In this document: positions 5,405 to 32,014 of the stretch, in pieces
How positions within the stretch are numbered: position 1 is the first letter of the stretch
Layout: every line of letters begins with the position of its first letter
Virus record (IMG/VR): IMGVR_UViG_3300023184_000027
Span: 62,001 to 126,000 of that record
Strand: one strand, 5' to 3'
Length of the DNA stretch: 64,000 nucleotides
Source: a virus
Made by a program: the position numbers and the translations under genes
The notes under the pieces: generated by a model
Database searches by the model: none
What the model saw: only the letters and a program-made list of their open reading frames with translations
What the model was told of the DNA's origin: nothing

Positions 5405-5830
5405 CTATCTATTATGTTCTCTTTTTATTCTTCTCGCATTTTCAGCTTCTGAACCTGAACAACCCGTAGTTTCTTTTCCAAACCCCTTTGATTGACCATC
5501 GTAAATATCCGCATCAGGACCTGAACATCGTTTTTCCTCCATTTTCCAATAATCTTCTTTGGTTTTACCTGGATTAGCAGCAATCCAATTATCTATTCTT
5601 GCTTTTTGTTTTGCACGAATTGGAGCCAATCTAATCTCATTCTCTTGTTTTTGTTTTTCTCGAGCTTCTTGATATTTTCTAATACGTTCCGCATTTTTTT
5701 GTTGAGGTGTTAAAACTGTAGTGGTTGTCGGTGTAGACCCACTTGTTACGGGTGTAGCACCACTCGTCACAGGTGGTGTGGTTTGTTCAACCAAAAAATT
5801 ATACTGGGATTCATTAATTATTATTTTCAT
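5405..5830 (-). CDS. Small basic protein with a capsid-targeting-like N-terminus; putative internal head protein
   Basis: A 141-residue protein, no family recognised. The N-terminus MKIIINESQYNFLVEQ resembles the T4 internal-protein capsid-targeting sequence (MKTYQEFIAE), which prohead protease gp21 cuts after Glu in an (L/I)-x-E context; here L13-V14-E15 fits. The remainder has a Thr/Pro-rich stretch (17-40), then a charged, Lys/Arg-rich helix (about 43-95) and two CSG motifs near the end. A terminator follows the gene and an ATATTTAT motif abuts its start. An internal head role is inference from the motif. Confidence 0.6.
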   Translation of the reverse strand: MKIIINESQYNFLVEQTTPPVTSGATPVTSGSTPTTTTVLTPQQKNAERIRKYQEAREKQKQENEIRLAPIRAKQKARIDNWIAANPGKTKEDYWKMEEKRCSGPDADIYDGQSKGFGKETTGCSGSEAENARRIKREHNR

Positions 5831-5843
5831 ATTAATAAATATC
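5831..5843 (-). promoter_or_regulatory. Late-type promoter-like motif
   Basis: The minus strand reads GATATTTATTAAT immediately before the ATG at 5830. The same 13 bases precede the HNH gene at 44667. With so little distance to the start codon, a transcript from this site would be leaderless or nearly so, unless the motif acts in translation instead. Confidence 0.4.
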
Positions 5844-5879
5844 CCATAAATAAAAAATCCCCAATCATGGGGATTATAT

Positions 5880-6164
5880 TTATTTTTTAAAATGTTCTTT
5901 GATTATCGCAATTCCTTCATCAATTTCATTGTAATCTCTTTCCGGTGCAAACAATAAAGTATTTGGTTTAACATCCGGAGATTCAACAATCATAAATGCC
6001 GGAACAAAATCGTTTTCTGTTATCTCCACAAACATATCATATTCGTCTTTGTGCTCATCAATATCTCTCTCAACAAAGAATATGTCGGACTCCACTAGTT
6101 TGTCCTTCATTTGGACGCAATAAGGGCATCCGTTCATTGTGAAAAGAATTAATAACTTATCCAT
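5880..6164 (-). CDS. grx: Glutaredoxin
   Basis: A 94-residue glutaredoxin with the active-site CPYC at residues 13-16 following beta-strand LLILFTMN, and the family-typical cis-Pro region (DFVPAFMIV) around 52-60. Glutaredoxins reduce disulfides and can serve as electron donors to class Ia ribonucleotide reductase, encoded in this window at 57392-60768. Its start overlaps the thioredoxin stop by 8 bases, so the pair is translationally coupled. Confidence 0.85.
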   Translation of the reverse strand: MDKLLILFTMNGCPYCVQMKDKLVESDIFFVERDIDEHKDEYDMFVEITENDFVPAFMIVESPDVKPNTLLFAPERDYNEIDEGIAIIKEHFKK

Positions 6165-6480
6165 TTAGTAAATTATCAACTAACTCTTTTATTTGGGATT
6201 CCATTTGCATTCCCGGTTGAGAATAAACTTCTTTACCCTCTGAAAATGATTTTACAGTCGGTATAGCTCTAATACCCAATGACGCCGCAAATTCTTTATT
6301 CTCTTCAACATTCAATGTGAATAACTGAACATTTGAGTTTTCATTTCTAAATTCTTCCGACACTCGTTCAAAAGCAGGTTTCATTATTTTACAAGGACCA
6401 CACCACGGAGCCCAAAAGTCCACGATTAGTTTATCCCCATTGTTAATTTTTTCCTGTAATAATTCTTGTGTAATTTCCAT
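6157..6480 (-). CDS. trx: Thioredoxin
   Basis: A 107-residue thioredoxin of normal family length. WAPWCGPCK carries the canonical WCGPC active site at about residues 25-29, followed by the conserved cis-Pro loop (IRAIPTVKSF). It would reduce protein disulfides; with the adjacent glutaredoxin it probably recycles the phage NrdA. The last bases overlap the glutaredoxin start. Confidence 0.92.
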   Translation of the reverse strand: MEITQELLQEKINNGDKLIVDFWAPWCGPCKIMKPAFERVSEEFRNENSNVQLFTLNVEENKEFAASLGIRAIPTVKSFSEGKEVYSQPGMQMESQIKELVDNLLNG

Positions 6481-6484
6481 AATT

Positions 6485-6820
6485 TTAATCTTTTTTTGTT
6501 AATCTTTTTAATTGTGATATCATATAATCCACCACATTTTTTTTATCCACCGTTGTTAAAATAAATATATCAGTTTCCATTCTTCTATAAATTAAAATTC
6601 CGGTTGAGTCATATTCATATAATCTACCTTGATGCAATGTCATATATTCATCATTCATCCAATCTTCATACCATAATAGATGGGATTTACTTAAAAATGT
6701 GTCCATATCTTTTGGTGATATTGGTGTAACTCGTAAGTCAATAATGCTCGGGTATAAACCAAACCTTTCCTTGAAGGTGTCTATACAATTTTGTGGTATT
6801 TCTTCCATATTAAAAATCAA
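6485..6820 (-). CDS. Conserved-type hypothetical protein
   Basis: A 111-residue protein that I do not recognise. It has no signal peptide or membrane segment, and is rich in aromatic and acidic residues (LLWYEDWMNDEYMTLH). Its start overlaps the end of the upstream PcfJ-like gene by 11 bases and its stop lies 4 bases before thioredoxin, so it belongs to the same transcript. Confidence 0.65.
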   Translation of the reverse strand: MIFNMEEIPQNCIDTFKERFGLYPSIIDLRVTPISPKDMDTFLSKSHLLWYEDWMNDEYMTLHQGRLYEYDSTGILIYRRMETDIFILTTVDKKNVVDYMISQLKRLTKKD

Positions 6821-8531
6821 ATAAGTTATCGTTGTTTTCTATCTCTACAGCCCAATTAGAATTATAAGAATTCATTTTATAAATTAAATCGTTCTCCCAC
6901 CCTAAATTATAAACTATTGGTGGTGTAGTACCGGAAATATGTAATCCTGTTCCCTCCGTTCTTTTATAATCTGAATGTATTTCTTTTCCCTTAACTTTAG
7001 CAATAATGCTCAAAGTATCAAATAATTTATCATCCACCAAATTTGAAATTCTATCGTCCAACACATTCAAAACTTTATCCCAACTAGCGTCCAACCATTT
7101 ATTATATCTACCTAAAGTTTGAACTCTATGTAAATTAAATTTTTTACCATTATGAGATATACGATACTCTATTGACGCTCTATCGCTAGAATCAATATTA
7201 TTTCTTCGTAATGAGATTAACAAAGAATGTGTTGTTTTTATATATGTCTTAACACAATTAGACTGAGATATTGATTCCGTATTATAATCTTTGGTGGTTT
7301 GTAATACAAGAGGTATATAACAATCATCCGGTTGAAGAATAACATTATTAACTCCTTCCACAAACTTATCATTATATATTCTTTTAAAATCCCCCGAATG
7401 ATAGTGAGAATGTTTTTCTGACCAATCAAAATGTTCCTCAATAAATTCAGTATGTGTGTTTGATTTCCATTTAACTGGTTCTTCAAATCTTTTTAACGAA
7501 TCATAAAATCTAAAATGGTCTCTATAAGTCGCACTACTAATTTCCCCATCAATAACTAACTTAAAAATTTCAAAAGAATTACTTTTTTCTTTATTATTTA
7601 AAAACTCACTATCAACACCAAGATAAAACCCCATTATGGGATTCTCCAACATTTTTTTAATTATATCGTCATTTTGAGAGGTTATATAATTTTTCCCAAA
7701 TAATTTACAAGCAAAATCATAAGTCTCAAAATTACAAGATTTAACGGTATGTAATATTCGTTTTAATTTATCACCACTAACATTATGGACATCCATAAAG
7801 GCGTCAATATATTTAAAATCTCTTTTCACCAAATCTTTTTTCTTTGGTTGAGGAAATACCATCATCAACTCAAACCAATTGTTTGGGAATTTAATACCCG
7901 AATTATCCAAATATCTTTTGTATATTCTCATATCGGGAGACATATCTAAATATTTTTCAGTACCGGGAATGGCATTTACAAATGAGTTAATAATTTCATT
8001 TATTTTTTCCGGAACATCCTCAATAATACCTTTAGCTAAATAACCATTTAGAATCTCTCTTAAACAAACTCTTATTTTATTTATTGGGTCAACATTAAAC
8101 ATACACCTTCTAACATTTTTTCTACATTTTGTTTTAAGATGATAATTAGTTAAGGAACCAGTGTATAATGAATTACTTTTAGAATTAAATGTTACGAATT
8201 GACATTTAGTAGCCACCCTGAACCACTTACCAGCAAGTCGTCGTCTTTTAGCATATTGGAAAATTTTAAATGATATTTTATCCTCATCGGTGGTAACACA
8301 GATTATTACTCTTTCAAATGATAAGGAACACAATGGGTTTGAGTAATTGTTTTTAAACTCATCTTCGGTGTTATGGGTGTCTTTATAGGTAAAACTACCC
8401 CAAGGAGTCATATTAGCATCATAATCATCAGAAAAAGGACACTCGGTCAACACCTGTTTTATAGGGTTAGAACTATGATATTCAATTGTTTGATGTTGTC
8501 TGATTGTGTAATTATATATCTCTTGACGCAT
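6810..8531 (-). CDS. PcfJ-like protein
   Basis: A 573-residue soluble protein. The C-terminal third carries a pattern like the PcfJ domain found in plasmids and phages: SQSNCVKTY, then a hydrophobic strand with Arg-Arg (LLISLRR), then an Ile/Glu strand (ASIEYRI) and VQTLGRYNKWLD. The function of PcfJ proteins is not established. The N-terminal part is basic and has no recognised domain. The gene heads a transcript (with the 111-residue protein, thioredoxin and glutaredoxin) behind a near-perfect Bacteroidota promoter. The family call is tentative. Confidence 0.5.
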   Translation of the reverse strand: MRQEIYNYTIRQHQTIEYHSSNPIKQVLTECPFSDDYDANMTPWGSFTYKDTHNTEDEFKNNYSNPLCSLSFERVIICVTTDEDKISFKIFQYAKRRRLAGKWFRVATKCQFVTFNSKSNSLYTGSLTNYHLKTKCRKNVRRCMFNVDPINKIRVCLREILNGYLAKGIIEDVPEKINEIINSFVNAIPGTEKYLDMSPDMRIYKRYLDNSGIKFPNNWFELMMVFPQPKKKDLVKRDFKYIDAFMDVHNVSGDKLKRILHTVKSCNFETYDFACKLFGKNYITSQNDDIIKKMLENPIMGFYLGVDSEFLNNKEKSNSFEIFKLVIDGEISSATYRDHFRFYDSLKRFEEPVKWKSNTHTEFIEEHFDWSEKHSHYHSGDFKRIYNDKFVEGVNNVILQPDDCYIPLVLQTTKDYNTESISQSNCVKTYIKTTHSLLISLRRNNIDSSDRASIEYRISHNGKKFNLHRVQTLGRYNKWLDASWDKVLNVLDDRISNLVDDKLFDTLSIIAKVKGKEIHSDYKRTEGTGLHISGTTPPIVYNLGWENDLIYKMNSYNSNWAVEIENNDNLFDF

Positions 8532-8547
8532 AGGTGTCTATTTTTGT

Positions 8548-8579
8548 CAAAGATACAATAAATTTTGGGATAAAACAAA
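8548..8579 (-). promoter_or_regulatory. Bacteroidota-type promoter for the PcfJ/thioredoxin operon
   Basis: On the minus strand TTTG (8576-8579), a 20-base spacer and TATCTTTG (8548-8555) match the Bacteroidota -33/-7 consensus TTTG-N19/20-TAnnTTTG exactly. The ATG at 8531 follows after about 16 bases. Position and orientation suit host-sigma-driven expression. Confidence 0.75.
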
Positions 8580-8870
8580 TTAATTTAAAGAAAAAGATGC
8601 GAATTGAGTATGGTAAATTAATGATTTAATTTTATCCATATCAACTTCCTCATTTTTAGATTCTTTAAGTTTAACAACAATAGAGATGAGTTGTTTTTGT
8701 GTTAAGGAAACATCTTCACCATTTTCAAGATTATCCAATGATTGTTGTTTCACTCTGTCGTAGAAGTCATCTTTCAATAAGTCCCCAATTAACTCTATTA
8801 AGTCATTGGGGTTCTTATCGAAGAAAGTTGTAAATTGATTAATGTAGATTTCAACATCAACATTTTTCAT
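8580..8870 (-). CDS. Hypothetical protein, helical
   Basis: A 96-residue protein of unknown function, predicted mostly alpha-helical from its residue pattern (DLIELIGDLLKDDFYDRV, LTQKQLISIVVKLKESK). It follows the 459-residue LRR protein by 23 bases on the same strand, and its 3' end overlaps the host-type promoter of the next operon. Confidence 0.6.
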   Translation of the reverse strand: MKNVDVEIYINQFTTFFDKNPNDLIELIGDLLKDDFYDRVKQQSLDNLENGEDVSLTQKQLISIVVKLKESKNEEVDMDKIKSLIYHTQFASFSLN

Positions 8871-8893
8871 ATCATTATTTTTTAAAATGGGGG

Positions 8894-10273
8894 TTAGGAA
8901 ACAGTATAAAATCCTGGTTCTTGTTCGCTAAGGTTCTCTAAAACTTTTTCAGGTATTTTAACATTTGGATTACTACCTCTTAAGTTAATGAACGCCAAGT
9001 CAGGAAGTTCAGAAACACTCTCAGGAATATTCTCTATTTGAGAATTACTTGGTAATGATAAAAATTGTAAATTCTTTAAATTTCCAATTGATTCCGGCAA
9101 ACTTTTACAAATGTTTTGTAATAATAACGCTTCAAGATTTACAAATCTACCAATAGAATCCGGAACATCTAATGCAATATCCTCATTAGATTTATTGTTA
9201 ATTAATAAACGTAATATAGTATCCGGTAAACTTTCAAATAATTCGTCAAACCCATAAAGAGCCACAAACTTACCTGATGAACTATCCGGATAATTTACCT
9301 CAACAACATCACCACCAGTTTTAACTAAACCTTCAGCAAATTCTTTTTTGAAGTATTCTTTAAGTTCTTTTCCTTCACCATTTAAGAATTCAACAAGATT
9401 TATTTGTCTATCTCTTCTATTCATAAATTGACTAGATGGGAAATGGAATTGGTATCTGTTTTTCGGTAATCCGGTTTTATCACTAAATTCTGTATCGTTA
9501 TTTGGTAATACAACATAATATTGTCCACCTTGTTTTAAGTAATAATCAAAATAAGTTCCGTCAATTTTTGAAGTACACCAACTTGTTTCACCAAATTGGT
9601 CAGATGTATCGTAATACCCACCAAAATAAGCCCCCGCCTCTTTAGCCGGTTGACTCATATCACTAATTGTTACAACAGTCCAACTTGGACTAACAAAATC
9701 AATTTTAGACCCAGGGTAAACAAAAGGATTTTCTTTAGTCAATCTTTCGGCCTTATTTGATTTAGAATCTTTTGTTAATTTAAAATCTTCTACAGCGGTA
9801 TATAATTGTTCAGGAGTTATTTTATTAATATCTCTTAATTCCTCCGGGATTCTTGATTTAAAACGCTCATGTTTTAATAAATCAACACCAAGTTTATCAA
9901 TGTCTTCTAAAAACATTCTTCTATATTCTTGAGCAGCTCTTTTATATTCCGGAGTACCAACTTCAATATCAGCTCTCTCATCAGTAAAAGTTGGTCTTAT
10001 AAAATGTTTTAACATCCATTGAGTATACTTACCAACCTTAACATTATCCATATCTTCTAAAGTAGCACCTTCTTTGTCAAAACCTTGAGGAACTCTAGTT
10101 GTTGGGTCAGCAAATATTATTGTTTTTAATGTTTCCAAATCCATTGCACCTTTAGGTTTTTGTCCCGGAGCTGTTGGTTTTGCCGCTGCAGTTGGTTTAA
10201 CTAATTTGTCGTATAATACTTGGAAACGAGATTGTTCTGTTATCAAATTCGAAAGTAATGAGGTTATTTTCAT
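8894..10273 (-). CDS. LRR-containing protein with capsid-targeting-like N-terminus; putative internal head/injected protein
   Basis: A 459-residue protein. Its N-terminus MKITSLLSNLITEQSRF resembles a T4-type capsid-targeting peptide with a possible prohead-protease site after Glu13 (I11-T12-E13). Middle part (50-340): unknown, with a distinctive ETSWCTSKIDGTYFDYYL and a following YYVVLP strand at about 229-256. Residues about 345-450 are leucine-rich repeats of the LPESIGNLKNLQFLSL type, usual in protein-interaction domains. A host-type promoter and an ATATTTAT motif both lie upstream. Packaging and injection are inferences; the LRR assignment is visible in the sequence. Confidence 0.6.
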   Translation of the reverse strand: MKITSLLSNLITEQSRFQVLYDKLVKPTAAAKPTAPGQKPKGAMDLETLKTIIFADPTTRVPQGFDKEGATLEDMDNVKVGKYTQWMLKHFIRPTFTDERADIEVGTPEYKRAAQEYRRMFLEDIDKLGVDLLKHERFKSRIPEELRDINKITPEQLYTAVEDFKLTKDSKSNKAERLTKENPFVYPGSKIDFVSPSWTVVTISDMSQPAKEAGAYFGGYYDTSDQFGETSWCTSKIDGTYFDYYLKQGGQYYVVLPNNDTEFSDKTGLPKNRYQFHFPSSQFMNRRDRQINLVEFLNGEGKELKEYFKKEFAEGLVKTGGDVVEVNYPDSSSGKFVALYGFDELFESLPDTILRLLINNKSNEDIALDVPDSIGRFVNLEALLLQNICKSLPESIGNLKNLQFLSLPSNSQIENIPESVSELPDLAFINLRGSNPNVKIPEKVLENLSEQEPGFYTVS

Positions 10274-10287
10274 TTTAATAGTTTTTT

Positions 10288-10300
10288 ATTATAAATATTC
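10288..10300 (-). promoter_or_regulatory. Late-type promoter-like motif
   Basis: The minus strand reads GAATATTTATAAT starting 27 bases before the ATG at 10273. The core ATATTTATAAT followed by A-run is shared with 16166-16178. It lies between the host-type promoter at 10349 and the gene, giving the gene two candidate promoters. Confidence 0.4.
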
Positions 10301-10318
10301 GTTTTTTGTAAATAATTC

Positions 10319-10344
10319 GCCAAACACCATTACTTTTGTTTGAC
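10319..10344 (-). other. Stem-loop at the 5' end of a leader RNA
   Basis: GCCAAACA (10319-10326) and TGTTTGAC (10337-10344) form an 8-pair stem (one G-T when read as minus-strand RNA) with a 10-base loop. It begins about 5 bases downstream of the -7 element at 10349-10356, so it would be the very 5' end of the transcript. It could instead be a weak terminator for the Dam gene, but lacks a good T-tract. Confidence 0.4.
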
Positions 10345-10348
10345 GGGA

Positions 10349-10379
10349 CAAAGATAATGATAATTTTTAATAATCCAAA
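10349..10379 (-). promoter_or_regulatory. Bacteroidota-type promoter upstream of the LRR protein gene
   Basis: TTTG (minus-strand reading of 10376-10379), 19-base spacer, then TATCTTTG (10349-10356). This matches TTTG-N19/20-TAnnTTTG with no mismatch. It sits directly after the Dam stop codon and would produce a leader of about 70 bases for the gene starting at 10273. Confidence 0.7.
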
Positions 10380-11234
10380 TTAAATTTTATAATTCATAAT
10401 TAAAATTTCTTCACCCATTGTTTGTGTCTTACCCTTCTTAGCCGCAGCCGCTTTTGCAAATAATTTTCTCTCCCACTGATATTGATTCTCCGGAAACCAC
10501 ACCTGTAATTGTGGAAAATCATAGTAAGACAACGAGAACTTCCCTTGAATACCTTTTAAAGTATCCGCCAATCTTTCGTGGTCTTCTCTTCCAAAATCAT
10601 GGTTAGAATAATAACTACCTTCACCCACAATGTAATAGGGTGGGTCAACATAAAAATAACTTGTAGGACCATCATACTTCTCTATAACCGTTTGGAAATC
10701 CATATTTTCAATATGTGTTATACTTTCAAATAATTTTTGCCAGTTTGGTTTCTTTAATTTGTTTTTGAATGATGTAAATTTTGAATGGTAATTACCTTTT
10801 AAATCTATAAATTTTGATTTAGATGGATTGGCACCTGAAAAAACCTGAGTTAACACATAGACATACTTCGCAGCTATCTCATAATTTGGGTCTTCACCAA
10901 TAACTAAATCATCTGAATAAATTTCTTTTTGAAACTTATCGAAATTTTCTTTACAAATAGGATTAGTTGGGACGACATTTTTCTCCTGAACCACCAATTT
11001 CTCACATTCTTCTAACAATCGTCTATGATTAACCACACAACGATACAGATTGTGATTGAGGGAATTAAAGTCGTTATAAACCACTTTTTTTAGATTAGAG
11101 TATTCCTCTAACTTCATTCCAAAGAATATCCAAAATTGACCTGAAAATGGTTCACAATATGTCTCAATGTCTTTTGGGATGAATGGAACTATGAATGTTT
11201 GCATTTTACTCTTACCACCTATATAACTTATCAT
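10380..11234 (-). CDS. dam: D12-class DNA adenine-N6 methyltransferase
   Basis: A 284-residue Dam-type methyltransferase. The AdoMet-binding motif is in MISYIGGKSKM at the N-terminus and EPFSGQFWIFFG around residues 28-39; the catalytic DPPY motif is at about 198-201 (YFYVDPPYYI). The length fits the family (T4 Dam 259, E. coli Dam 278). FSGQFWIFFG deviates from the usual FxGGG. It would methylate adenine in a short target, probably to protect phage DNA. A homopolymeric Ala run (AKAAAAKKG) near the C-terminus is unusual. It has an ATATTTAT motif upstream. Confidence 0.85.
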   Translation of the reverse strand: MISYIGGKSKMQTFIVPFIPKDIETYCEPFSGQFWIFFGMKLEEYSNLKKVVYNDFNSLNHNLYRCVVNHRRLLEECEKLVVQEKNVVPTNPICKENFDKFQKEIYSDDLVIGEDPNYEIAAKYVYVLTQVFSGANPSKSKFIDLKGNYHSKFTSFKNKLKKPNWQKLFESITHIENMDFQTVIEKYDGPTSYFYVDPPYYIVGEGSYYSNHDFGREDHERLADTLKGIQGKFSLSYYDFPQLQVWFPENQYQWERKLFAKAAAAKKGKTQTMGEEILIMNYKI

Positions 11235-11247
11235 AATTTTTGTTTTT

Positions 11248-11260
11248 TATAAATATAAGA
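11248..11260 (-). promoter_or_regulatory. Promoter-like motif for the Dam gene
   Basis: The minus strand reads CTTATATTTATAA, starting 26 bases before the ATG at 11234. A CTTG tetramer lies 20 bases further upstream of TATATTTA, so the site is intermediate between the host-type promoter and the late-type motif. Confidence 0.35.
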
Positions 11261-11281
11261 AATAAAAAGTGTAAAAGCAAG

Positions 11282-11312
11282 TTTTTCTTTTAAAATTTTT
11301 TCACTATATTTG
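11282..11312 (+). promoter_or_regulatory. Bacteroidota-type promoter for the 72-residue membrane protein
   Basis: TATATTTG at 11305-11312 matches the -7 element TAnnTTTG exactly. At 19 bases upstream is TTTT (11282-11285), a one-mismatch -33 element. The ATG at 11334 follows after 21 bases. Confidence 0.55.
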
Positions 11313-11333
11313 ATATAAATTAATATTATTTAT

Positions 11334-11552
11334 ATGGAAACAATAGAAGCACAAATTATCGAAGAAAAAGACATTAAAACAACAGAAAAAATTAATCAAA
11401 ATACAAAGGACGAAAAATCAGGTTGTAAATCTTGCAAAAAGAAAGGAATATCAAACACCGATTGGCTTATGATAATCCTTTCATCTTATATTTTATTCTC
11501 ATCAGTTTATGGTACAATAAAATTGATTAAAGAACTTATGTTATTATTCTAA
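11334..11552 (+). CDS. Small membrane protein with a CxxC motif
   Basis: A 72-residue plus-strand gene between minus-strand dam and dnaJ. A charged N-terminal half (1-30) is followed by GCKSCKKKG (CxxC, possible metal site or disulfide) and one predicted transmembrane helix (about 44-66, DWLMIILSSYILFSSVYGTI). No family is recognised. It has its own host-type promoter and is convergent with dnaJ at 3 bases, with no terminator hairpin visible between them. Confidence 0.6.
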   Translation: METIEAQIIEEKDIKTTEKINQNTKDEKSGCKSCKKKGISNTDWLMIILSSYILFSSVYGTIKLIKELMLLF

Positions 11553-11554
11553 AA

Positions 11555-12478
11555 TTACTTACGAGAGAATTTAACATTTAATTTTATAAACAAATCCCCA
11601 ACATTATTAAACCCTTTGGATTTAACTCTAAGGGGTTTTGTTGTGTCAAAGTCAATCGGCAATTTAACCGATATATTACCTTTTGGATGACTAACATCTA
11701 AAGTATCTTTCTTTATTGACTCTAAATCAAAAAAGGCATTAAACACTAAATCATTACCAAGTTTTTCAAAATTGTTTTCAGGTGAAACTTTAATCCTTAA
11801 AACTAAATTTCCGTAAATTCCATTATGGAAATCACCTTTTCCTTGCAATCTTAAAAATTGACCATCATCCACAGCATGAGGTAATTTAATTGATAAATTT
11901 TCAATAGAACTTTTGGTTGTTTCTCCATTACAAGACCCACAAGTTCTTGAATATGTAAACCCATTTCCATTACAAGAATTACAAACTTGTCTCACCATCT
12001 GAATAAACATACCAGTACCAATTCTTTGAATAGTAAATCCTTCTCCTCGGCAAGTACCACAATTTACCCTATCACCACCACTACCATTACAACCACCACA
12101 TTTATGTTTTCTACTATATGTTATTGTTTTATCAGAACCATTATAACTTTCTAAAGCCCCAACCACAACTTCAATTACTTTATCCGGAACTGATGGTCTT
12201 CTTTGAGAGTTCATATTATTAAACATATCTTCAAATGGGTTTCCACCACCACCAAAAGGATTAAAACCACCACCAAAAGGATTTGACCTTTGATTATCGT
12301 ATTGTTGGCGTTTATCGTTGTCCCCTATCGTATCAAACGCTTCAGAAATTTCTTTAAACTTATTCTCATCACCACCTTTATCCGGATGATGCTCCACCGC
12401 CAATTTTCTATAGGATTTTTTAATCTCTTCTTGGGTAGCCGTTTCATTAACCCCTAATGTCTCATAAAAATTTTTCAT
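11555..12478 (-). CDS. dnaJ: DnaJ-family co-chaperone
   Basis: A 307-residue type I J-domain protein. J domain 1-70 with HPD at 32-34 (VEHHPDKGG), then a Gly/Phe region (NPFGGGFNPFGGGG), then a four-motif zinc-binding domain (CGGCNGSG, CGTCRGEG, CNSCNGNG, CGSCNGET) and a C-terminal substrate-binding domain. All four CxxC pairs are present, though the last motif ends GET rather than GxG. It is shorter than host DnaJ (about 370). It would stimulate host DnaK ATPase and deliver substrates, perhaps phage head or replication proteins. Confidence 0.93.
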   Translation of the reverse strand: MKNFYETLGVNETATQEEIKKSYRKLAVEHHPDKGGDENKFKEISEAFDTIGDNDKRQQYDNQRSNPFGGGFNPFGGGGNPFEDMFNNMNSQRRPSVPDKVIEVVVGALESYNGSDKTITYSRKHKCGGCNGSGGDRVNCGTCRGEGFTIQRIGTGMFIQMVRQVCNSCNGNGFTYSRTCGSCNGETTKSSIENLSIKLPHAVDDGQFLRLQGKGDFHNGIYGNLVLRIKVSPENNFEKLGNDLVFNAFFDLESIKKDTLDVSHPKGNISVKLPIDFDTTKPLRVKSKGFNNVGDLFIKLNVKFSRK

Positions 12479-12532
12479 ACTTATTTACTTATATTTAATT
12501 TAAAACTAATCTATTTAATAACAACTATCAAC

Positions 12533-13174
12533 ATGAATTACTTAATTGTTCTATTCAAAAATAAAATAAAAAAGAAAATAATCAATAAATTTAAGACACA
12601 TAAAAAGTCTGATGATTTATTTATTACCTTATCTAATCAAAGTAATGATGTTATTTTTGAAAAAAAGTATACGAATGGGGATGAATGTAGTTATGAATTA
12701 GCAATGTTGGAGAGGTCATCCGGAACTTTTATCCCTGTGTACTTAAAAGATGAGTTAGGTCGACAAATTAAAGTTAATTTAGACGATGGTGATTATACAA
12801 TAACAAAAATAATAACCTATAAAATTGAGGAGACTTTATTAGACACCACCTTAAATAAAAAAATAAACTCTCATGAGTTTATTAAATTGTATTTAGACCC
12901 AGTGGGGTTTAAATTAATGTCAAAATTAAATAATAAAATTATTGTTCAGAATGACGATAAAGTTAATTTATTCATTTTAAAAAATGAGTATGATTCCTCT
13001 CGTTTTATAGAATCTATTTCAAATAAATTTATATCAGAAAAAAGAATGGATTGTATGTTCATTAAAGATTGTTCTACACCCCAAAAAAAATCCCTGTATA
13101 ATTTGTTAATTAATCAGGGGTTTTCAAAAGACTACCTTCTTCGGTATTCAACAACTCATCCAGTAAAAAAATAA
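12533..13174 (+). CDS. Hypothetical protein, plus strand
   Basis: A 213-residue protein without a recognised domain. Basic N-terminus (KNKIKKKIINKFKTHKK), then mixed alpha/beta with acidic loops. It diverges from dnaJ (54 bases between starts) and its last 65 bases overlap the 3' end of the minus-strand 88-residue gene tail to tail. The upstream gap contains TATATTTAAT (12491-12500), a weak promoter-like element. Confidence 0.65.
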   Translation: MNYLIVLFKNKIKKKIINKFKTHKKSDDLFITLSNQSNDVIFEKKYTNGDECSYELAMLERSSGTFIPVYLKDELGRQIKVNLDDGDYTITKIITYKIEETLLDTTLNKKINSHEFIKLYLDPVGFKLMSKLNNKIIVQNDDKVNLFILKNEYDSSRFIESISNKFISEKRMDCMFIKDCSTPQKKSLYNLLINQGFSKDYLLRYSTTHPVKK

Positions 13175-13376
13175 ATTCAGTGTTTGAAATATCAATTTTA
13201 AATTGTTTATAATTTCTGTCAACATCTCTAAAATTTTTTTGAACTGTTTTATAATCTTTTTCTTTAAGTTCAAAAGCTATCATACATTTCCCATCAGGAA
13301 ATAAATTTTCAATAGCATCAGATATCATCGCTAACTTTTGAATTACTCCATCAACACTTTTTTTATTCTCATCCAT
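13110..13376 (-). CDS. Hypothetical protein
   Basis: An 88-residue protein of unknown function, no membrane segment, with a hydrophobic strand CMIAFEL in the middle and an acidic end. It overlaps the upstream 63-residue gene by 34 bases and the convergent plus-strand gene by 65 bases. Position in a run of short overlapping minus-strand genes supports it. Confidence 0.55.
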   Translation of the reverse strand: MDENKKSVDGVIQKLAMISDAIENLFPDGKCMIAFELKEKDYKTVQKNFRDVDRNYKQFKIDISNTEFIFLLDELLNTEEGSLLKTPD

Positions 13377-13534
13377 AAGGTTAGTTTTTCCGGTATTATT
13401 TGTTTTGGAAGAATATCTTCCTTTTTAATTTTAGCAATGTCATTAATTAATCTTGATTTTTCATTATCTAAATTAATTTCATCTTTTTTAAGTTCATTCT
13501 GATACCACTCTAGGTGTTTCAAGCTCTTCTTCAT
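13343..13534 (-). CDS. Hypothetical small helical protein
   Basis: A 63-residue Lys/Glu-rich protein (HLEWYQNELKKDEINLDNEK) that could form a coiled coil. Both ends overlap neighbours (34 bases with the 88-residue gene, 41 bases with the upstream gene). Codon composition is like its neighbours; no family recognised. Confidence 0.45.
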   Translation of the reverse strand: MKKSLKHLEWYQNELKKDEINLDNEKSRLINDIAKIKKEDILPKQIIPEKLTLWMRIKKVLME

Positions 13535-13922
13535 TGTCTTCTAGTTCAATTTTATCAGTTTTTATATTAAATTTTAATTTTTTTAAATTATTCAAATTTT
13601 GTTTTTCAAAAATAGTTTTTAATTCATCAACTTTATATTGGAAGAGTTTATCTTTTTCTTCTCTGTCCAAATTATACTTAATAATGTTTCGTAAATTCTC
13701 TGAAGTCTTTTCAATATTATCTTCATTTATTTCACTAACAAACGAAAAAAATCTATGGTCCGGTACTTTACTCTCTTGTTCCATTAATTTATCTTCCTCA
13801 ACATATTTTTTAGGTAATTTCCAATCCATAGGAAACGCAACATCAAAACTTAAATATTTTTCAATTTTTCTAACTGATTGTAGATAAGGGAATAATGTTG
13901 AAAATTCTTTATATAAACTCAT
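13494..13922 (-). CDS. Hypothetical protein
   Basis: A 142-residue protein counted from ATG 13920-13922 (MSLYKEFSTLFPYLQSVRKI). This start is preferred over an upstream in-frame start at 13952 because it lies 2 bases after the stop of the preceding gene. A central Pro/Trp segment (FPMDWKLPKKYVEE) precedes a long charged helix (about 70-125) and an acidic tail. No family is recognised. Confidence 0.6.
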   Translation of the reverse strand: MSLYKEFSTLFPYLQSVRKIEKYLSFDVAFPMDWKLPKKYVEEDKLMEQESKVPDHRFFSFVSEINEDNIEKTSENLRNIIKYNLDREEKDKLFQYKVDELKTIFEKQNLNNLKKLKFNIKTDKIELEDNEEELETPRVVSE

Positions 13923-13924
13923 AA

Positions 13925-14110
13925 TTAATATTTTATAATATAGGTTAAACAATAGGATATTGCTAATCCCAAATAGATAAGTTCCCCATTATACAATAAA
14001 AACCTTTTTGGTGGGTTTGATATTAGGGAACCTATTAATCTAGTTACCGTCCGTAAAACGGTTAAGACTGAAAAGATAAATATAAACAATAAAATTGTTT
14101 TAATATCCAT
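13925..14110 (-). CDS. Small membrane protein
   Basis: A 61-residue protein with two predicted transmembrane helices, residues about 4-25 (TILLFIFIFSVLTVLRTVTRL) and 41-59 (GELIYLGLAISYCLTYII), joined by a short basic loop (NPPKRF). It lies 2 bases after the Hc1-like gene and 2 bases before the next, in a tight operon. Holin-like in size, but no direct support for lysis. Confidence 0.55.
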   Translation of the reverse strand: MDIKTILLFIFIFSVLTVLRTVTRLIGSLISNPPKRFLLYNGELIYLGLAISYCLTYIIKY

Positions 14111-14112
14111 AA

Positions 14113-14289
14113 CTATTCGTCTTTTTTTCTTTCAGATAAAATTTCTTTTCGTAAAGTGTCTAAAGATTTTTTTAAATCTTGAGATAATTTTCTAGCTCTA
14201 GTACCAGCACTTTTATTACCTGCGAAGAATTTTGTAGCATCCACTGATAATTCTTCAGTTAAAGCTTTAATTTGTTCTAATGTTTCCAT
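14113..14289 (-). CDS. Hc1-like (histone H1-like) DNA-associated protein
   Basis: A short gene read directly from the minus strand: 58 residues starting METLEQIKALTEELSVDATK at ATG 14287-14289 and ending at TAG 14113-14115. The pattern FFAGNKSAGTRARKLSQDLK, with KSAGTRARK at its core, and the basic helical tail match the Hc1 family (PF07432), small histone-H1-like proteins widespread in Bacteroidota. The protein would bind DNA. It precedes the small membrane protein by 2 bases. Family match is from memory of the motif, so a profile search should confirm. Confidence 0.7.
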   Translation of the reverse strand: METLEQIKALTEELSVDATKFFAGNKSAGTRARKLSQDLKKSLDTLRKEILSERKKDE

Positions 14290-14370
14290 GTCAAAGTTTG
14301 TTAATAATTTATTTTTATTTCTTTAAAAGTAAATTTATTTATACCATTGTAAACACTATATAGACTTTTT

Positions 14371-14838
14371 TTATGTTTTGAGACTATTATTCAACACTTT
14401 GTATATCATTAAAATCATCTCTAAATCAGATTTTGTAAATGTTTTTTCTAAATTAAATAAATCTGTGAAAAATTCACCGACTGAAAGTCTAACTTTTTCC
14501 TCCTTTTGATGATAAAAAATTTCATCAAAAAAAGATTCAAAATAATCATAATGACCACCTTTAAGATGGAAATTAATATTTTCTTTTTTAAAATTTTCAA
14601 TTGTTTTCTTCCAACACCAATCAAAATGATTTAAATTATCTTTATCAGACAAAATTATTTTTGTTTCGTTAGAAATAGTGTTTTGACCTAAATAGGTCTG
14701 TAAAATTAAAGAGTTAAGTGAGTGGGAAAAGTCTGAATATAGTTCTAATTTTTCGGGAATAACATTGTTAACCCTAAACCAGACTTCTACATCTTCGGGG
14801 GACATTGGCTTTGTTATATAATTAAAAAAATTCTCCAT
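14371..14838 (-). CDS. Hypothetical protein whose start codon lies in a terminator hairpin
   Basis: A 155-residue soluble protein (MENFFNYITKPMSPEDVEVW) of unknown function, rich in aromatic residues (HYDYFESFFDEIFYHQ). Its ATG (14836-14838) sits in the 3' arm of a 10-bp perfect hairpin and its first codons encode the T-tract, so transcription from upstream should terminate here and ribosome access should be limited. About 80 AT-rich bases separate its stop from the Hc1-like gene and show no other gene. Confidence 0.6.
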   Translation of the reverse strand: MENFFNYITKPMSPEDVEVWFRVNNVIPEKLELYSDFSHSLNSLILQTYLGQNTISNETKIILSDKDNLNHFDWCWKKTIENFKKENINFHLKGGHYDYFESFFDEIFYHQKEEKVRLSVGEFFTDLFNLEKTFTKSDLEMILMIYKVLNNSLKT

Positions 14839-14857
14839 AGAGTTTGTCTATGGAGAA
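14824..14857 (-). terminator. Rho-independent terminator overlapping a start codon
   Basis: On the minus strand TTCTCCATAG, a 7-base loop and CTATGGAGAA form a 10-bp perfect stem (14848-14857 with 14831-14840), followed directly by TTTTTTT. It lies 28 bases after the stop of the 422-residue gene. The 3' arm contains the ATG of the next gene, so the site may act as an attenuator or translation switch rather than a simple end. Confidence 0.8.
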
Positions 14858-14885
14858 ATTATAATTCATTTTATTTTTTTGTAAA

Positions 14886-16154
14886 TTATTGAGTCTTACC
14901 TTTGTAAGTAATTAGTGATTTCATTCTATCAAACTCTTCTGATATTTGTTTTGATTGTTTAGGCTCTAACGACTCTAATTTAGCCATTAATTTAGACCCT
15001 TCATCTTCACCAGAATTGTCAGTAACAATAGGTTGCGGCGCTTTATTATAAGCCTTCTTTTTAATTTGACCCAATATATTCTTTTTCCTAATTGTATTTC
15101 GTTTTTTGTTAACATCCGATTCACCAGTGTTAGCCCATTCCGGATTATTACCCGTTCTTGAAGACCCTTCAATGTTATCAGTTATCCACTCTTCATTTGG
15201 ATGTATTTCATCATATACTAAATTTTCTTGACCCGCAGCCGTTAAATTATCTGTATACTCTTCAACAGCCCCTGACGGGATATAAGCCTTTTTACTCATT
15301 TTAGATAACTCACCATTTCCTTTTGGAAATATTTTAGGTTCTGTTGAGTACTCACCTTTAGAACCGTCTTTTAAATATTCTTTCATTTTTTTAGTAACAG
15401 ATTTAAGATAATCATCATTTTCTTTACCAGATTTTTTATGAACTTGAATTTGTTTATCTAAACCTTTAGGTGTTCCCATTGATTTAATGTTTTTTTCTTT
15501 ACTCTGTTCCATAATAACACTTTCAATTAATTCAATCATTTGACTTTCAGTTAATTTAACAGACTCTTTACGTTTACCCTCTTCACCCATCTCTAATTTT
15601 TTGTTTTTTCTTAACATTTTAAAATCTTCAGTGTCTAATCGGTTATTTTTATTTTTATCTAAAACTTTTTGATTTCCTTTTAAAGATTCTTCCATCTCCG
15701 ATTTTTTACTTTTTCTCAACATTTTAAAATCTTCAGTGTCTAACCTATTGTTTTTATTTTTATCCAAAACTTTTTGATTTCCTTTTAAAGATTCATTAAC
15801 GTCTGTTCCACAAAATTTCTCAATTCTATCTTTAGGAGCGTTGTTTTCTTTATGCCATTTACAAGCCTCTTCATCATAATCATAATTACCATCGGAATCA
15901 CTATCACCTTCTTCTTCTTCAATATAGTCAAACGATTGACTTTTTGGGAATTTTTTTGAGACATCGTAAATTCCTTCACCACACTCCGAACATTCTCCTT
16001 CATACATCATTCCACCACACTCACAAATATTAGACTCATTCTCATCAACACTGCTTTTTATTTTAGAGACTAAATCATCAGCTCTATTTTCTAAAGTTTC
16101 ACTTAAAATTTTAGATACTAAATTTTCTAAATAAGTTGTATTTAATTTTTTCAT
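14886..16154 (-). CDS. Putative internal head/scaffold protein with zinc ribbon and EF-hand-like tandem repeat
   Basis: A 422-residue, highly charged protein. Cys residues 44, 46, 55 and 58 (CECGG, CSECG) form a small zinc-ribbon-like site. Residues 121-155 and 156-190 are two near-identical 35-residue repeats containing DKNKNNRLDTEDF, which fits an EF-hand/dockerin calcium loop. VIMEQ at 213-217 resembles the Glu-Gln motif in other candidate head proteins. The C-terminal half is low-complexity and basic. No enzyme domain is visible. An ATATTTAT motif precedes the start and a terminator follows. Head location is inferred. Confidence 0.6.
   Translation of the reverse strand: MKKLNTTYLENLVSKILSETLENRADDLVSKIKSSVDENESNICECGGMMYEGECSECGEGIYDVSKKFPKSQSFDYIEEEEGDSDSDGNYDYDEEACKWHKENNAPKDRIEKFCGTDVNESLKGNQKVLDKNKNNRLDTEDFKMLRKSKKSEMEESLKGNQKVLDKNKNNRLDTEDFKMLRKNKKLEMGEEGKRKESVKLTESQMIELIESVIMEQSKEKNIKSMGTPKGLDKQIQVHKKSGKENDDYLKSVTKKMKEYLKDGSKGEYSTEPKIFPKGNGELSKMSKKAYIPSGAVEEYTDNLTAAGQENLVYDEIHPNEEWITDNIEGSSRTGNNPEWANTGESDVNKKRNTIRKKNILGQIKKKAYNKAPQPIVTDNSGEDEGSKLMAKLESLEPKQSKQISEEFDRMKSLITYKGKTQ
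15590..15800 (-). repeat. 105-bp tandem repeat, two copies
   Basis: Two copies of a 105-base unit (35 codons) inside the gene at 14886-16154; for example the stretch reading gatttccttt begins at 15671 and again at 15776. The copies differ at few bases, so the duplication is recent or conserved by recombination. Confidence 0.8.
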
Positions 16155-16165
16155 TTTTTGTTTTT

Positions 16166-16178
16166 ATTATAAATATAT
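16166..16178 (-). promoter_or_regulatory. Late-type promoter-like motif
   Basis: The minus strand reads ATATATTTATAAT followed by AAAAAC, starting 24 bases before the ATG at 16154, nearly the same as the copy at 10288-10300. No TTTG -33 element is visible. Confidence 0.4.
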
Positions 16179-16954
16179 TATTTTTTATTTAAAAGCATTT
16201 TTTCATACTCATAAGAGATAATTGTTTTAATAACATTTTCACTTATATTATGTTTTTCACTAATATTTTGAATAGCTTGTTTAACCATATCATTCTCATA
16301 TAGTTTTAAAGACTTAATATCACCTTGATTACAATATGGAAATTTTTTACATTTTTTCTTAACTTGGACAAATTTTCCTCCCGGGATTTGAGTTTTAGAA
16401 GCACCTCTCCAATCTTTTTTACTTGGTGATTTAGCCCAAGCAGCAGGAGTTTCATATGAACCTGAAGAACCTGAACCAGTTGATTCAGTAGCTTCAACTT
16501 TTTTTACGTCATCTTCTTTAACACAATTCGGAACTTTCTTTTTACCTTTATCTTTTGTACCAATTTGTTTATAACCTTTCCAACATTCTTCTTCCATTTC
16601 TTTTTTTGTTGTTGAAAATAGTGGAGTTTCAAATCCTCCTGCAGAAGACGCACCCATAGATTCAACAGCTTCTTCCTTTTCACCCATAATAGGTAAGGAT
16701 GATGATAATTTACCAACAGGTTTTTTTAATTTAGTATCCCCAACTAATTTAGTGGCAATTCCTTTATTAATAGGTCTCTTAATCATGTCTAATTTTTTAT
16801 TTTTTTTATTTGACTCCCCTAAATCTTTTGTAATGTCTTGAGCCGCTATTATTGTATCAACAACATAACCATCTCTATAAGGAGCTGTTTGGGTCACCTC
16901 ACCATTAATCTTCTTTTTTAAATCATCAGACATTTCGTCTTCTTCTATTTTCAT
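16178..16954 (-). CDS. Putative internal virion protein with conserved Cys motifs
   Basis: A 258-residue, Lys-rich, largely disordered protein. Two stretches look conserved: ECWKGYKQIG ... KKKVPNCV (about 124-145), a pattern I associate with internal virion proteins of marine T4-like phages, and KFVQVKKKCKKFPYCNQGD (about 200-218). The C-terminal 45 residues are helical. It lies 4 bases downstream of the 81-residue gene and upstream of the zinc-ribbon head-protein candidate. Virion role is inference; no catalytic motif is seen. Confidence 0.55.
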   Translation of the reverse strand: MKIEEDEMSDDLKKKINGEVTQTAPYRDGYVVDTIIAAQDITKDLGESNKKNKKLDMIKRPINKGIATKLVGDTKLKKPVGKLSSSLPIMGEKEEAVESMGASSAGGFETPLFSTTKKEMEEECWKGYKQIGTKDKGKKKVPNCVKEDDVKKVEATESTGSGSSGSYETPAAWAKSPSKKDWRGASKTQIPGGKFVQVKKKCKKFPYCNQGDIKSLKLYENDMVKQAIQNISEKHNISENVIKTIISYEYEKMLLNKK

Positions 16955-16957
16955 TTT

Positions 16958-17203
16958 TTAAGCGTTTTTAAGTCTTGATTCCCAAAAACTTCGTTGATTC
17001 CACATTACACTATATAATTCTCTAAATGACCTAATAACAATATCCTTAACCTCACCCTCAAGTTTACCTCGTTTTATTTCACGACCGAGTATTTCAATAA
17101 GTTTTTGTTCGTATTGTTTAATTGTTGTAGTACCAAAGAAATCTTTAATTTCTTTTCGCATCATAACCTCAATTTCTTTTTTCTCCGCTGCAGTAAACGC
17201 CAT
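16958..17203 (-). CDS. Small conserved-type phage protein
   Basis: An 81-residue, helical protein (MAFTAAEKKEIEVMMRKEIK ... YSVMWNQRSFWESRLKNA). The Trp-rich end (MWNQRSFWESRL) is distinctive. Function not recognised. One base separates it from the upstream spanin-like gene and 4 bases from the downstream gene, so it is in the same operon. Confidence 0.6.
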   Translation of the reverse strand: MAFTAAEKKEIEVMMRKEIKDFFGTTTIKQYEQKLIEILGREIKRGKLEGEVKDIVIRSFRELYSVMWNQRSFWESRLKNA

Positions 17204-17204
17204 T

Positions 17205-17609
17205 TTATTTAAGTATTAATAAGTATGTCGAAGTTATTATCCCAGCAAATGTTCCAGCTTTCCATAAAAAAGATTTAAATCTTTGACCGGTAAGTTCTTT
17301 ATGTAATTTATCTGATAATTCTTCAGATATTTTCAATTGCTCATCTTTTTTACCCAACATAAAATTATTATTAGAATCTTTCTCTTCTAATAATGAAATT
17401 TGGGTATCTTTTTGTTTTTCCCTTTCTTCGGTTTTAACTAATTTTTCTTGAGTTAATTTTAACTCAATGTCGCACCCATCACCCTTAATAATATCTTTAA
17501 TTACTAATTTAGCGATTGGTGTTTTAATTCTTACTTTCGTTGTATCTGTTTGTGAAAAACTGCTCAAGCTCGTTAGCAGTAAGAGTATCAACACTATTAA
17601 CTTTTTCAT
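17205..17609 (-). CDS. Exported coiled-coil protein, possible spanin component
   Basis: A 134-residue protein with a signal peptide (MKKLIVLILLLLTSLSSFSQ, cleavage likely near SFS-Q), a central coiled coil (about 50-105, KLTQEKLVKTEEREKQKDTQ) and a C-terminal transmembrane segment (about 112-133). Its first 86 bases overlap the upstream gene in another frame, an arrangement typical of Rz/Rz1 lysis pairs. No lipobox Cys is present, unlike classic Rz1, so the spanin call is only a candidate. Confidence 0.5.
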   Translation of the reverse strand: MKKLIVLILLLLTSLSSFSQTDTTKVRIKTPIAKLVIKDIIKGDGCDIELKLTQEKLVKTEEREKQKDTQISLLEEKDSNNNFMLGKKDEQLKISEELSDKLHKELTGQRFKSFLWKAGTFAGIITSTYLLILK

Positions 17610-17883
17610 TGGTTTGTTTTTTAATTATTGTTATATTATTATCTATGTGGTTAATATCTTTTGTTAAATTAACAACATTACCTTTAACAGAATCAATTTT
17701 AATATCAATACCTTCGTTAACTGATTTAGTTGAGTCAATTACCGTTTGTAAAGATTCTATTTTATCTTTATACAAGTTAACATCAGTTTTAATCCCGTTT
17801 GTTGTGAATATATTATACCCACACAAAACAACGACAATCACTAATAAAATATTCTGCTTATTATTACCAACAATATCTCCCAT
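17524..17883 (-). CDS. Membrane-anchored coiled-coil protein, possible i-spanin
   Basis: A 119-residue protein with one N-terminal transmembrane helix (about 11-28, NILLVIVVVLCGYNIF) and a long periplasmic coiled coil (about 35-100). This is the topology of Rz-type inner-membrane spanins. The downstream partner gene overlaps its 3' end by 86 bases. The amidase endolysin lies two genes upstream, which supports a lysis cassette. Function is inferred from topology and context. Confidence 0.5.
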   Translation of the reverse strand: MGDIVGNNKQNILLVIVVVLCGYNIFTTNGIKTDVNLYKDKIESLQTVIDSTKSVNEGIDIKIDSVKGNVVNLTKDINHIDNNITIIKKQTNEKVNSVDTLTANELEQFFTNRYNESKN

Positions 17884-17888
17884 TATTA

Positions 17889-18488
17889 TTATGTTTTAAT
17901 TGTTTTTTTTCTTGATGCTAAAATTTTAGCCCACTTTGATTTAAATTTTTCATAAAAAGTTTTTAACTTATTAATCATTTCTAAAAATTCGTCATCAGCC
18001 TTTATCATTTCACCATTAATATAAATACCACTTTCTTCACCAATTGATAAGAAAAAATCAACATCATAGTCAATTAATTTTCCCGACCACTCAACATTGT
18101 TTGGATAAATATTTAATTTGTTAAAATCTACTAAATCAGACACTTCAGCTATAAATTCATCCATTGTTTCTTGGAAAGCAATTTTTTCATCTGTAGTTAA
18201 TTCTAAATCTGTTTGTTCTTTACCGTGTAAAACTAAAATTCCACCTGAAATTCTATATCCTTGTGTTTTATCGTCTTTACTTTCATTATCATCTTCAATT
18301 GTATCTTCAACAGATTTAGTTACATCATATTTTTTAGTGATATCACCTGAAGACACTTCGGTTTCTTGTTCAGTAATTACACCATATTTTTGTCTAATAT
18401 TATTAATATCTTCATTAATGGTATCATTGGATAACATTTTTCTAGAAGCGTTAAGTAAATTTCTTATTTCATCATGTGAATTGTTCAT
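17889..18488 (-). CDS. Putative internal head protein with ITEQ motif
   Basis: A 199-residue acidic protein. N-terminal helix (HDEIRNLLNASRKMLSND) leads to YGVITEQETE at residues 35-44, where I38-T39-E40 fits the prohead-protease consensus (L/I)-x-E, followed by an acidic stretch and a C-terminal globular part (about 75-190) ending in a basic helix. No family name is recognised. It overlaps the amidase gene end by 17 bases. Head assignment rests on the motif only. Confidence 0.5.
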   Translation of the reverse strand: MNNSHDEIRNLLNASRKMLSNDTINEDINNIRQKYGVITEQETEVSSGDITKKYDVTKSVEDTIEDDNESKDDKTQGYRISGGILVLHGKEQTDLELTTDEKIAFQETMDEFIAEVSDLVDFNKLNIYPNNVEWSGKLIDYDVDFFLSIGEESGIYINGEMIKADDEFLEMINKLKTFYEKFKSKWAKILASRKKTIKT

Positions 18489-19077
18489 ATTCTATTTTTT
18501 TTAAAAATTCTTCAAAATTAAATGCGGGACTAACATCGGTAAAATTAGTATTAAAATTACTTTTAGTTACGATTCCACAATATTTTTCAATACCGGTTAT
18601 TTTTGTATTATGTTCGACTATTTGACGTTTAATTGACATATCTTTAAATAATTCATTACATAGTTTTGATGTACTATCAATCTGTACTGAAGTATAAGGT
18701 TGCCAAAAATAATAGTCTCTCCATTTTTTTTCAAACACATTACCCTTATAAATATCACCAATCCAGTTAACGTAATGATTAGTTAAAGGTTCTTTGTGTA
18801 ACCACCCTAAATTTTCTAAAGAAACAATTATAGAATTTCTATTTATATTGGGATTTGAGAAATAGTCGGAGTGCCCTTCATTCCCTAATAACTGTAGTAT
18901 TTTACCCTCTCTGGTTATAATATAATTGGGTATTCTGTTATATTTACCGTTATTTCTATATTTTAATAATTGTAAATAATCGTTAATATTTCTTGAAGTG
19001 TGAGTTAGAATTATTTGATATTTCTTTTTTTGTTTTCCTTTAGGTTTAAAATCACCATAATTAATAATGTCCACCAT
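18472..19077 (-). CDS. N-acetylmuramoyl-L-alanine amidase (endolysin)
   Basis: A 201-residue protein of the amidase_2/PGRP fold. The zinc-ligand His is in ILTHTSRN (about 25), followed by IPNYIITREGKILQLL (about 48-63), GHSDYFSNPNINRNSI, a typical SIIVSLENLG strand, and a late His in IVEHNTKITG (about 155). It would cut the bond between muramic acid and the stem peptide to lyse the host. No signal peptide or separate binding domain is seen, so release needs a holin. It lies next to a possible spanin pair. Confidence 0.8.
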   Translation of the reverse strand: MVDIINYGDFKPKGKQKKKYQIILTHTSRNINDYLQLLKYRNNGKYNRIPNYIITREGKILQLLGNEGHSDYFSNPNINRNSIIVSLENLGWLHKEPLTNHYVNWIGDIYKGNVFEKKWRDYYFWQPYTSVQIDSTSKLCNELFKDMSIKRQIVEHNTKITGIEKYCGIVTKSNFNTNFTDVSPAFNFEEFLKKIEYEQFT

Positions 19078-31798: not shown

Positions 31799-32014
31799 AT
31801 GCCAACACAAATAACGATTAACAATATCACCGGTGCTTCACCATTTAATATCTATATATGTGATAATCCAATCACGATATGCGTATATGAAGAAACCATA
31901 ACGTCATTCCCATATTTGTTTAATGTTCCATCTATAATATCAGAACAATCATCTGTCAATTTAAAAGTTATTGATAATAATGGTTGTGAATCAATTTTAA
32001 ATTTAAATCTATAA
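31799..32014 (+). CDS. Small SprB-like single-domain protein
   Basis: A 71-residue protein (MPTQITINNITGASPFNIYI) that resembles one SprB/PKD-type beta-sandwich repeat and is related to the 101-residue product at 3161-3466. It abuts the next gene (stop directly followed by ATG 32015). It is first in a four-gene plus-strand unit of fibre genes. A small structural role is inferred. Confidence 0.6.
   Translation: MPTQITINNITGASPFNIYICDNPITICVYEETITSFPYLFNVPSIISEQSSVNLKVIDNNGCESILNLNL

Follow-up and report, generated by a model that had tools for sequence, protein, structure and literature searches.

Between positions 5,405 and 18,488 of a 64,000-nucleotide stretch (the window: bases 62,001-126,000 of the 207,952-base virus record IMGVR_UViG_3300023184_000027, hereafter the contig), four genes on the minus strand encode proteins with a hydrophobic-x-Glu-Gln string: FLVEQ at residues 12-16 of the 141-residue product of gene 5405-5830, LITEQ at residues 10-14 of the 459-residue product of gene 8894-10273, VIMEQ at residues 213-217 of the 422-residue product of gene 14886-16154 and VITEQ at residues 37-41 of the 199-residue product of gene 17889-18488 (each protein is named below by the first coordinate of its gene). 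The initial annotation placed the four strings correctly and noted an MKI start, which is seen in two of the proteins; it took the four for one family of candidate T4-like internal head proteins with xEQ as its signature. We found instead that they are samples of several classes of short N-terminal peptides (tags) whose common feature is I/L-x-E, and that about 10% of genes bear one of several related tags. For most tagged proteins of this freshwater phage group, these peptides would probably serve as capsid-targeting propeptides of the T4 kind, providing both targeting and cleavage. Besides the entire contig, we read two relatives, the 282-kb G001 (IMGVR_UViG_3300042562_001598) and the near-identical 322-kb G007 (IMGVR_UViG_3300042482_000702).

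The 17889 protein (17889..18488, minus strand) comprises a tag, an indel-rich linker and a conserved body, and its gene adjoins an amidase-like gene. Its predicted propeptide covers residues 1-40 (MNNSHDEI...YGVITE; 18369..18488, minus strand), with a predicted cut before Q41. IMG/VR contains at least 301 stretches related to this protein. Among 54 distinct sequences of the family, P1 (position 40) is E in 54/54 and P3 (position 38) is I or L in 54/54, while position 39 varies between T, N, S, L and I, and P1' (position 41) between Q, E and D. Since E or D replaces Q in these homologues, a strict EQ rule was rejected, and I/L-x-E takes its place. The first 23 residues are conserved and indels start directly after position 41. 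A second possible site, INE|D, is present at residue 26. AlphaFold predicts a helical N-terminus followed by an unstructured stretch at a predicted local distance difference test (pLDDT) score of 46.6, and we read this model no further.

The 17889 gene stands at 17205-19077 of the window among genes for small membrane-helix proteins, beside an N-acetylmuramoyl-L-alanine amidase-like gene (18472-19077); the neighbourhood looks like a lysis cassette. At 19105-20094, a protein ends in about 12 EEPIEDVV repeats, whose copy number may differ between strains.

In the 5405 protein (5405..5830, minus strand), the tag precedes a Thr/Pro/Ser-rich linker and a basic body of unknown function. The predicted propeptide MKIIINESQYNFLVE (residues 1-15; 5786..5830, minus strand) belongs to class T1, with a predicted cut before Q16, and both close homologues keep L-V-E at the end of the tag. 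G007 encodes this body twice in tandem, once behind the T1 tag (MKIIINESQYNFLVE|QT) and once behind a T6 tag (MNTSYSKIRHIQESNLRLEKRILSE|QS), and the similarity between the two genes starts at their Glu-Gln codons. G001 carries the body behind a third, T4-class-like tag (MKKFLITESEKKTIRQLYGLSE|QQ). The RYMFFSNLEQ family has mostly T3 tags and T5-like ones in other members, with an [ILVM]xE end in 46/46, and in a capsid-adjacent family varying N-termini (HINE, HISE, QIKE, ILRE, LLTE) lead into a common E|(A/S)T...GS start in 7/7. Thioredoxin is found as tagged and untagged paralogues. Altogether, at least six tag types occur on unrelated bodies and the swaps fall exactly at the site, which shows by natural swaps, not by experimental transfer, that the peptide is transferable. 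An RYMFF-type body was also found in a 642-kb phage (LR756502.1, about 141,850-142,320), behind a differing basic N-terminal domain that ends in ...LKSMKE|SNEG and has no clade tag.

The 8894 protein (8894..10273, minus strand) joins a tag to a 'WCTS' domain (about residues 80-290) and a C-terminal LRR (about residues 370-450). The Pfam LRR_14 match is below the cut-off (1.5e-8), and LRR matches were found in PDB. The predicted propeptide MKITSLLSNLITE (residues 1-13; 10235..10273, minus strand) would be cut before Q14. The G007 protein is 97% identical to that of the contig. LI(T/V)E is kept in all tagged members of this family, and G001 has one tandem paralogue without the peptide. In the AlphaFold model (mean pLDDT 77.7), residues 1-13 score below 50, a stretch that ends exactly at the predicted P1 Glu, and the better-predicted fold starts after them. 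Residues 80-290 are homologous to EST35_0205 of Pseudomonas phage PA5oct (MK797984; HHalign 98.7%, 3.8e-16), whose record reports detection as a structural protein by electrospray ionization tandem mass spectrometry (ESI-MS/MS). This is the sole tie to experimental virion data, and it concerns one domain of one protein. PA5oct also resembles this group in its T4-type head genes, but differs in having other tag sequences and an EST35_0205 without LRR. We did not rely on the T1-tagged G007 protein 315114, which matched EST35_0205 in phmmer with a tiny database, was not confirmed by HHalign and has a weak link to the LRR family.

We recognized at least six tag classes: T1, MK(I/L/F)IITE, in longer form MKIIITE(S/N)(Q/K); T2, MNLQENIxRIxxMMGxIxE; T3, MKKVIxLTESDLxxLIKxVxxEQ, or more loosely xIxLTESDLxxLIKxxxxEQ; a T4-class, MKNLFxISEEEKNRILNLHESATKxxYLxEQ, or more loosely ISEEEKNRILxLHExATKxxYLxEQ; T5, MKDLIKKILRE; and T6, SKIRHIQExNxxLEKxLLSEQ. 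One degenerate T4-class pattern retrieved 72 stretches from IMG/VR, and in 72/72 it lies no more than 20 residues from the start codon. Tagged genes of G007 occupy mainly accessory arms (0-60, 160 and 300-322 kb) and are absent from 100-160 and 180-240 kb. Judged by the isolates compared below, this phage clade seems to have tag sequences of its own, and we found no description of them in the open-access literature. A small-gene run in G001, at contig positions of about 134,000-136,500, repeats MKTKIxLGKSVxxKVxxSVxxSVxxSV and forms an odd tandem family.

Most tagged bodies are of unknown function. Pfam domains behind tags include thioredoxin, peptidoglycan-binding, L,D-transpeptidase/Tlde1-like, Acb1 (anti-CBASS) and DUF5872. 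The Acb1-like protein (L001:18716-19282, minus strand) carries the T2 tag MELNEQLTKIKTMMGINE; the product of T4 gene 57B, which adjoins ipI in T4, is without this N-terminal extension. Elsewhere on the contig (154,496-156,034, plus strand; L006:9496-11034), a 512-residue protein holds an Fe/Mn superoxide dismutase that is complete from residue 36 (Pfam 2.5e-39 and 1.6e-23), with MKKIEEKINLITE|ELKK ahead of it and a second unknown domain after it; it is present in G007 too. A ferritin-like protein (L003:2668-3297, minus strand; Pfam 5.8e-17) has a 57-residue N-terminal extension, and in G001 the body is kept with a differing extension.

A prohead protease gene, expected to lie outside the window, was found as a gp21 homologue in relatives. 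The contig is a fragment with neither head genes nor a gp21 family member, and apparently it lacks the head block. Matches to Pfam S77 (gp21) and gp23 occur together in 8/11 relatives >190 kb searched, G007 included, and gp21 is encoded by 13/16 contigs (80-295 kb) bearing the T4-class tag or the RYMFFSNLEQ family. G007 gp21 matches the T4 gp21 structure 5JBL (3.5e-14), and for the capsid protein of this relative the matches are T4 gp23 structures (about 3e-25). The head block of relatives runs terminase, portal, core, gp21, scaffold, gp23, an order also seen in the annotation of Flavobacterium phage immuto, a cultured relative. Their capsid N-arm reads ENQASFLINE|ATSxGSSGSFETV, with a predicted site at FLINE|A, and their scaffold reads ELVKESL(T/N/S)E|Q, with a predicted site at SLTE|Q. 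The T4 analogues are gp23 FLTE|A and gp24 LLRE|S, which agree with the shortening of the chains on maturation (gp23 from 521 to 456 residues, gp24 from 427 to 417). T4 gp21 cuts after L/I-x-E, removing propeptides of 7 to 65 residues; Alt loses 7 residues and gp23 loses 65, and IPIII needs no more than its 10 N-terminal residues to be packaged (PMC9026906). In PA5oct, EST35_0152 is annotated as a prohead assembly (scaffolding) protein, yet it matches gp21 of this group (2.2e-25); a better candidate for the scaffold of that phage is EST35_0153, an unannotated protein beginning with MTVKFEHILNEQ.

We further compared protein N-termini with the rest of the proteome. On the contig, positions 1-42 of the proteins (9,240 residues in all) hold 11 instances of hydrophobic-hydrophobic-x-E-Q, against 6 in the remaining 57,533 residues, an 11.4-fold enrichment (p=2e-6); the motif is enriched 5.0-fold in G007 (p=4e-6) and 3.9-fold in G001 (p=3e-4). 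The control patterns [IL]xDQ, [IL]xKQ and [IL]xEK showed no significant N-terminal enrichment in the contig and the two relatives, and [IL]xEN was mildly enriched in the relatives. When N-termini were compared free of any motif between proteins with non-homologous bodies, 24, 52 and 53 pairs scored at least 45 in the three genomes, whereas segments drawn at random from the interior of these proteins gave 1-7 such pairs. With the genome positions of the tagged genes, this covers part of the question whether the motif is as frequent in non-head proteins, and in that part it was not.

We propose that the N-terminal peptide would bind the scaffold core during prohead assembly, so that the attached protein is enclosed, and that a gp21-type serine protease would then cut after the Glu of I/L-x-E and free the mature protein within the head. 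At least some of the freed proteins would probably be ejected with the DNA, and several interchangeable tag classes would serve dozens of unrelated cargo proteins, including the 5405, 8894 and 17889 proteins. We favor capsid targeting because of the P1/P3 invariance, the sites shared with capsid and scaffold, the modularity of the tags and the presence of gp21 in relatives. The T4-like, protease-cut cargo of the initial annotation thus gains strong comparative support, while packaging, cleavage and injection are what these sequences lead us to infer; ejection of any given tagged protein is put forward only tentatively.

Several points weigh against this interpretation. I/L-x-E by itself is a weak motif, and the T1 tag offers E7, a later E or both as candidate cut positions. 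The tag-class patterns matched 26/220, 39/399 and 37/418 proteins versus a mean of 0.2-0.5 for shuffled N-termini, but they were composed after inspection of the sequences, so this shuffle test is biased and the figure descriptive. In PA5oct, short N-terminal I/L-x-E peptides occur in 14/93 proteins detected by mass spectrometry versus 40/360 others, which is not significant (p=0.19). None of these tag classes matched in 61 kb of T4, 120 kb of immuto, 50 kb of PTm1 or in crAss001, for which a T4-type head is not annotated, so no isolate is directly usable. We did not find gp21 in three of the 11 large relatives, possibly contig fragments, and the presence of tagged proteins in the virions of this group is predicted.

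The tagged proteins could instead be prohead-core or scaffold-type factors that enter the prohead and are cut by gp21, but are then broken down or expelled before the DNA is packaged, without ever reaching a host. T4 gp22, gp67 and gp68 act in this way (PMC9026906), and two proteins of the window fit such a role. The 14886 protein (14886..16154, minus strand) is a low-complexity protein with two EF-hand-like loops and several sites, a candidate core or internal protein. Its VIMEQ was correctly located, but it is internal, and the same protein has an N-terminal L-S-E (residues 17-19): the start MKKLNTTYLENLVSKILSE (residues 1-19; 16098..16154, minus strand) has an I/L-x-E end, ...KILSE|T, and KIL[SNK]E is kept in close homologues. 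VIMEQ belongs to the T3-tag-like internal element KLTESQMIELIESVIME (residues 200-216; 15507..15557, minus strand), which most close homologues keep and several lineages lack. The neighboring 258-residue protein (16178..16954, minus strand), also of low complexity with several internal sites, twice contains the stretch that lies behind the predicted cleavage site of the relatives' capsid protein: VESMGASSAGGFETP (residues 97-111; 16622..16666, minus strand) and VEATESTGSGSSGSYETP (residues 153-170; 16445..16498, minus strand; compare NEATSEGSSGSFETV of the capsid protein). Under our main reading too, both are probably core or inner-head proteins whose sites are internal, an assignment less sure than for the N-terminally tagged proteins. 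As an account of the tags in general, however, a transient core role is unlikely, as most tagged proteins combine an obvious N-terminal site with a body that is intact and often resembles an enzyme (thioredoxin, Acb1-like, L,D-transpeptidase-like).

The peptides could also be uncut docking signals for another destination, such as the tail, the membrane or a replication factory, with I/L-x-E marking the end of an amphipathic helix. The tags are amphipathic and helix-like, and tagged genes cluster in accessory arms, mostly away from head genes. This is a little less credible again, given that Glu and the I/L at P3 are invariant while neighboring residues vary, that capsid and scaffold proteins share the sites and that swap boundaries fall at the site.

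We consider it very improbable that the N-termini are alike because a recombination or translation-initiation cassette was copied among genes, with a peptide that has no role. The copies are short and sit at gene starts, where an A-rich start could favor initiation. Orthologues nevertheless retain the peptide across large divergence, and in T1 the third positions of conserved codons are mixed and hydrophobic residues interchange, which points to the peptide as the target of selection and disfavors recent copying at the DNA level as the source of tag similarity. Chance strings in unrelated proteins have next to no likelihood: the five-residue motif is degenerate and two further window matches (FIDEQ at residue 43 of gene 62647-63648 and IISEQ in the open reading frame 31799-32014) look accidental, but the 11.4-fold N-terminal enrichment (p=2e-6), the flat controls and the invariance in homologues all speak against it.

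Capsid targeting as proposed here resembles the T4 IPI/IPII/IPIII/Alt system in its short N-terminal peptide ending in L/I-x-E, in similar peptides standing before unrelated bodies, and in the gp21-type protease and gp23-type capsid of the contig's relatives. It differs in having other peptide sequences, at least six classes and about 10% of genes versus four proteins in T4. No Pfam match links the bodies to any T4 internal protein, so that of the likeness first drawn to T4 the propeptide logic stands: the system would work like that of T4 without its proteins belonging to those families. The ejection proteins of phiKZ and SPN3US also come from large phages with many head proteins and N-terminal propeptides cut after Glu. 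The SPN3US prohead protease follows an A-x-E rule (PMC10052503); the 17889 homologues do not fit it, with I or L at P3 in 54/54, and capsid and protease are of the T4 type here. Immuto shares the order gp20, gp21, scaffold, gp23 and has a capsid site IVSE|A, but the 120 kb of it that we read matched none of the tag classes.

T4 packs just a few proteins, all addressed in one way, and SPN3US and phiKZ send a large bolus under another protease rule. A whole clade of large aquatic phages may use at least six types of interchangeable tags to route some 25-40 different proteins per phage into the head, so that infection would start with a delivered proteome including Acb1-like, thioredoxin and LRR proteins. 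We give this broader picture slightly less than even odds, and separate tag classes may address separate positions or times in assembly. If true, head cargo would become predictable from sequence in many uncultured phage genomes, many unknown accessory genes would gain a function, and new capsid-targeting peptides would be available for protein packaging. Anti-defense proteins would be delivered before phage gene expression, and the tags might account for the way large phages supply a host with proteins made in advance.

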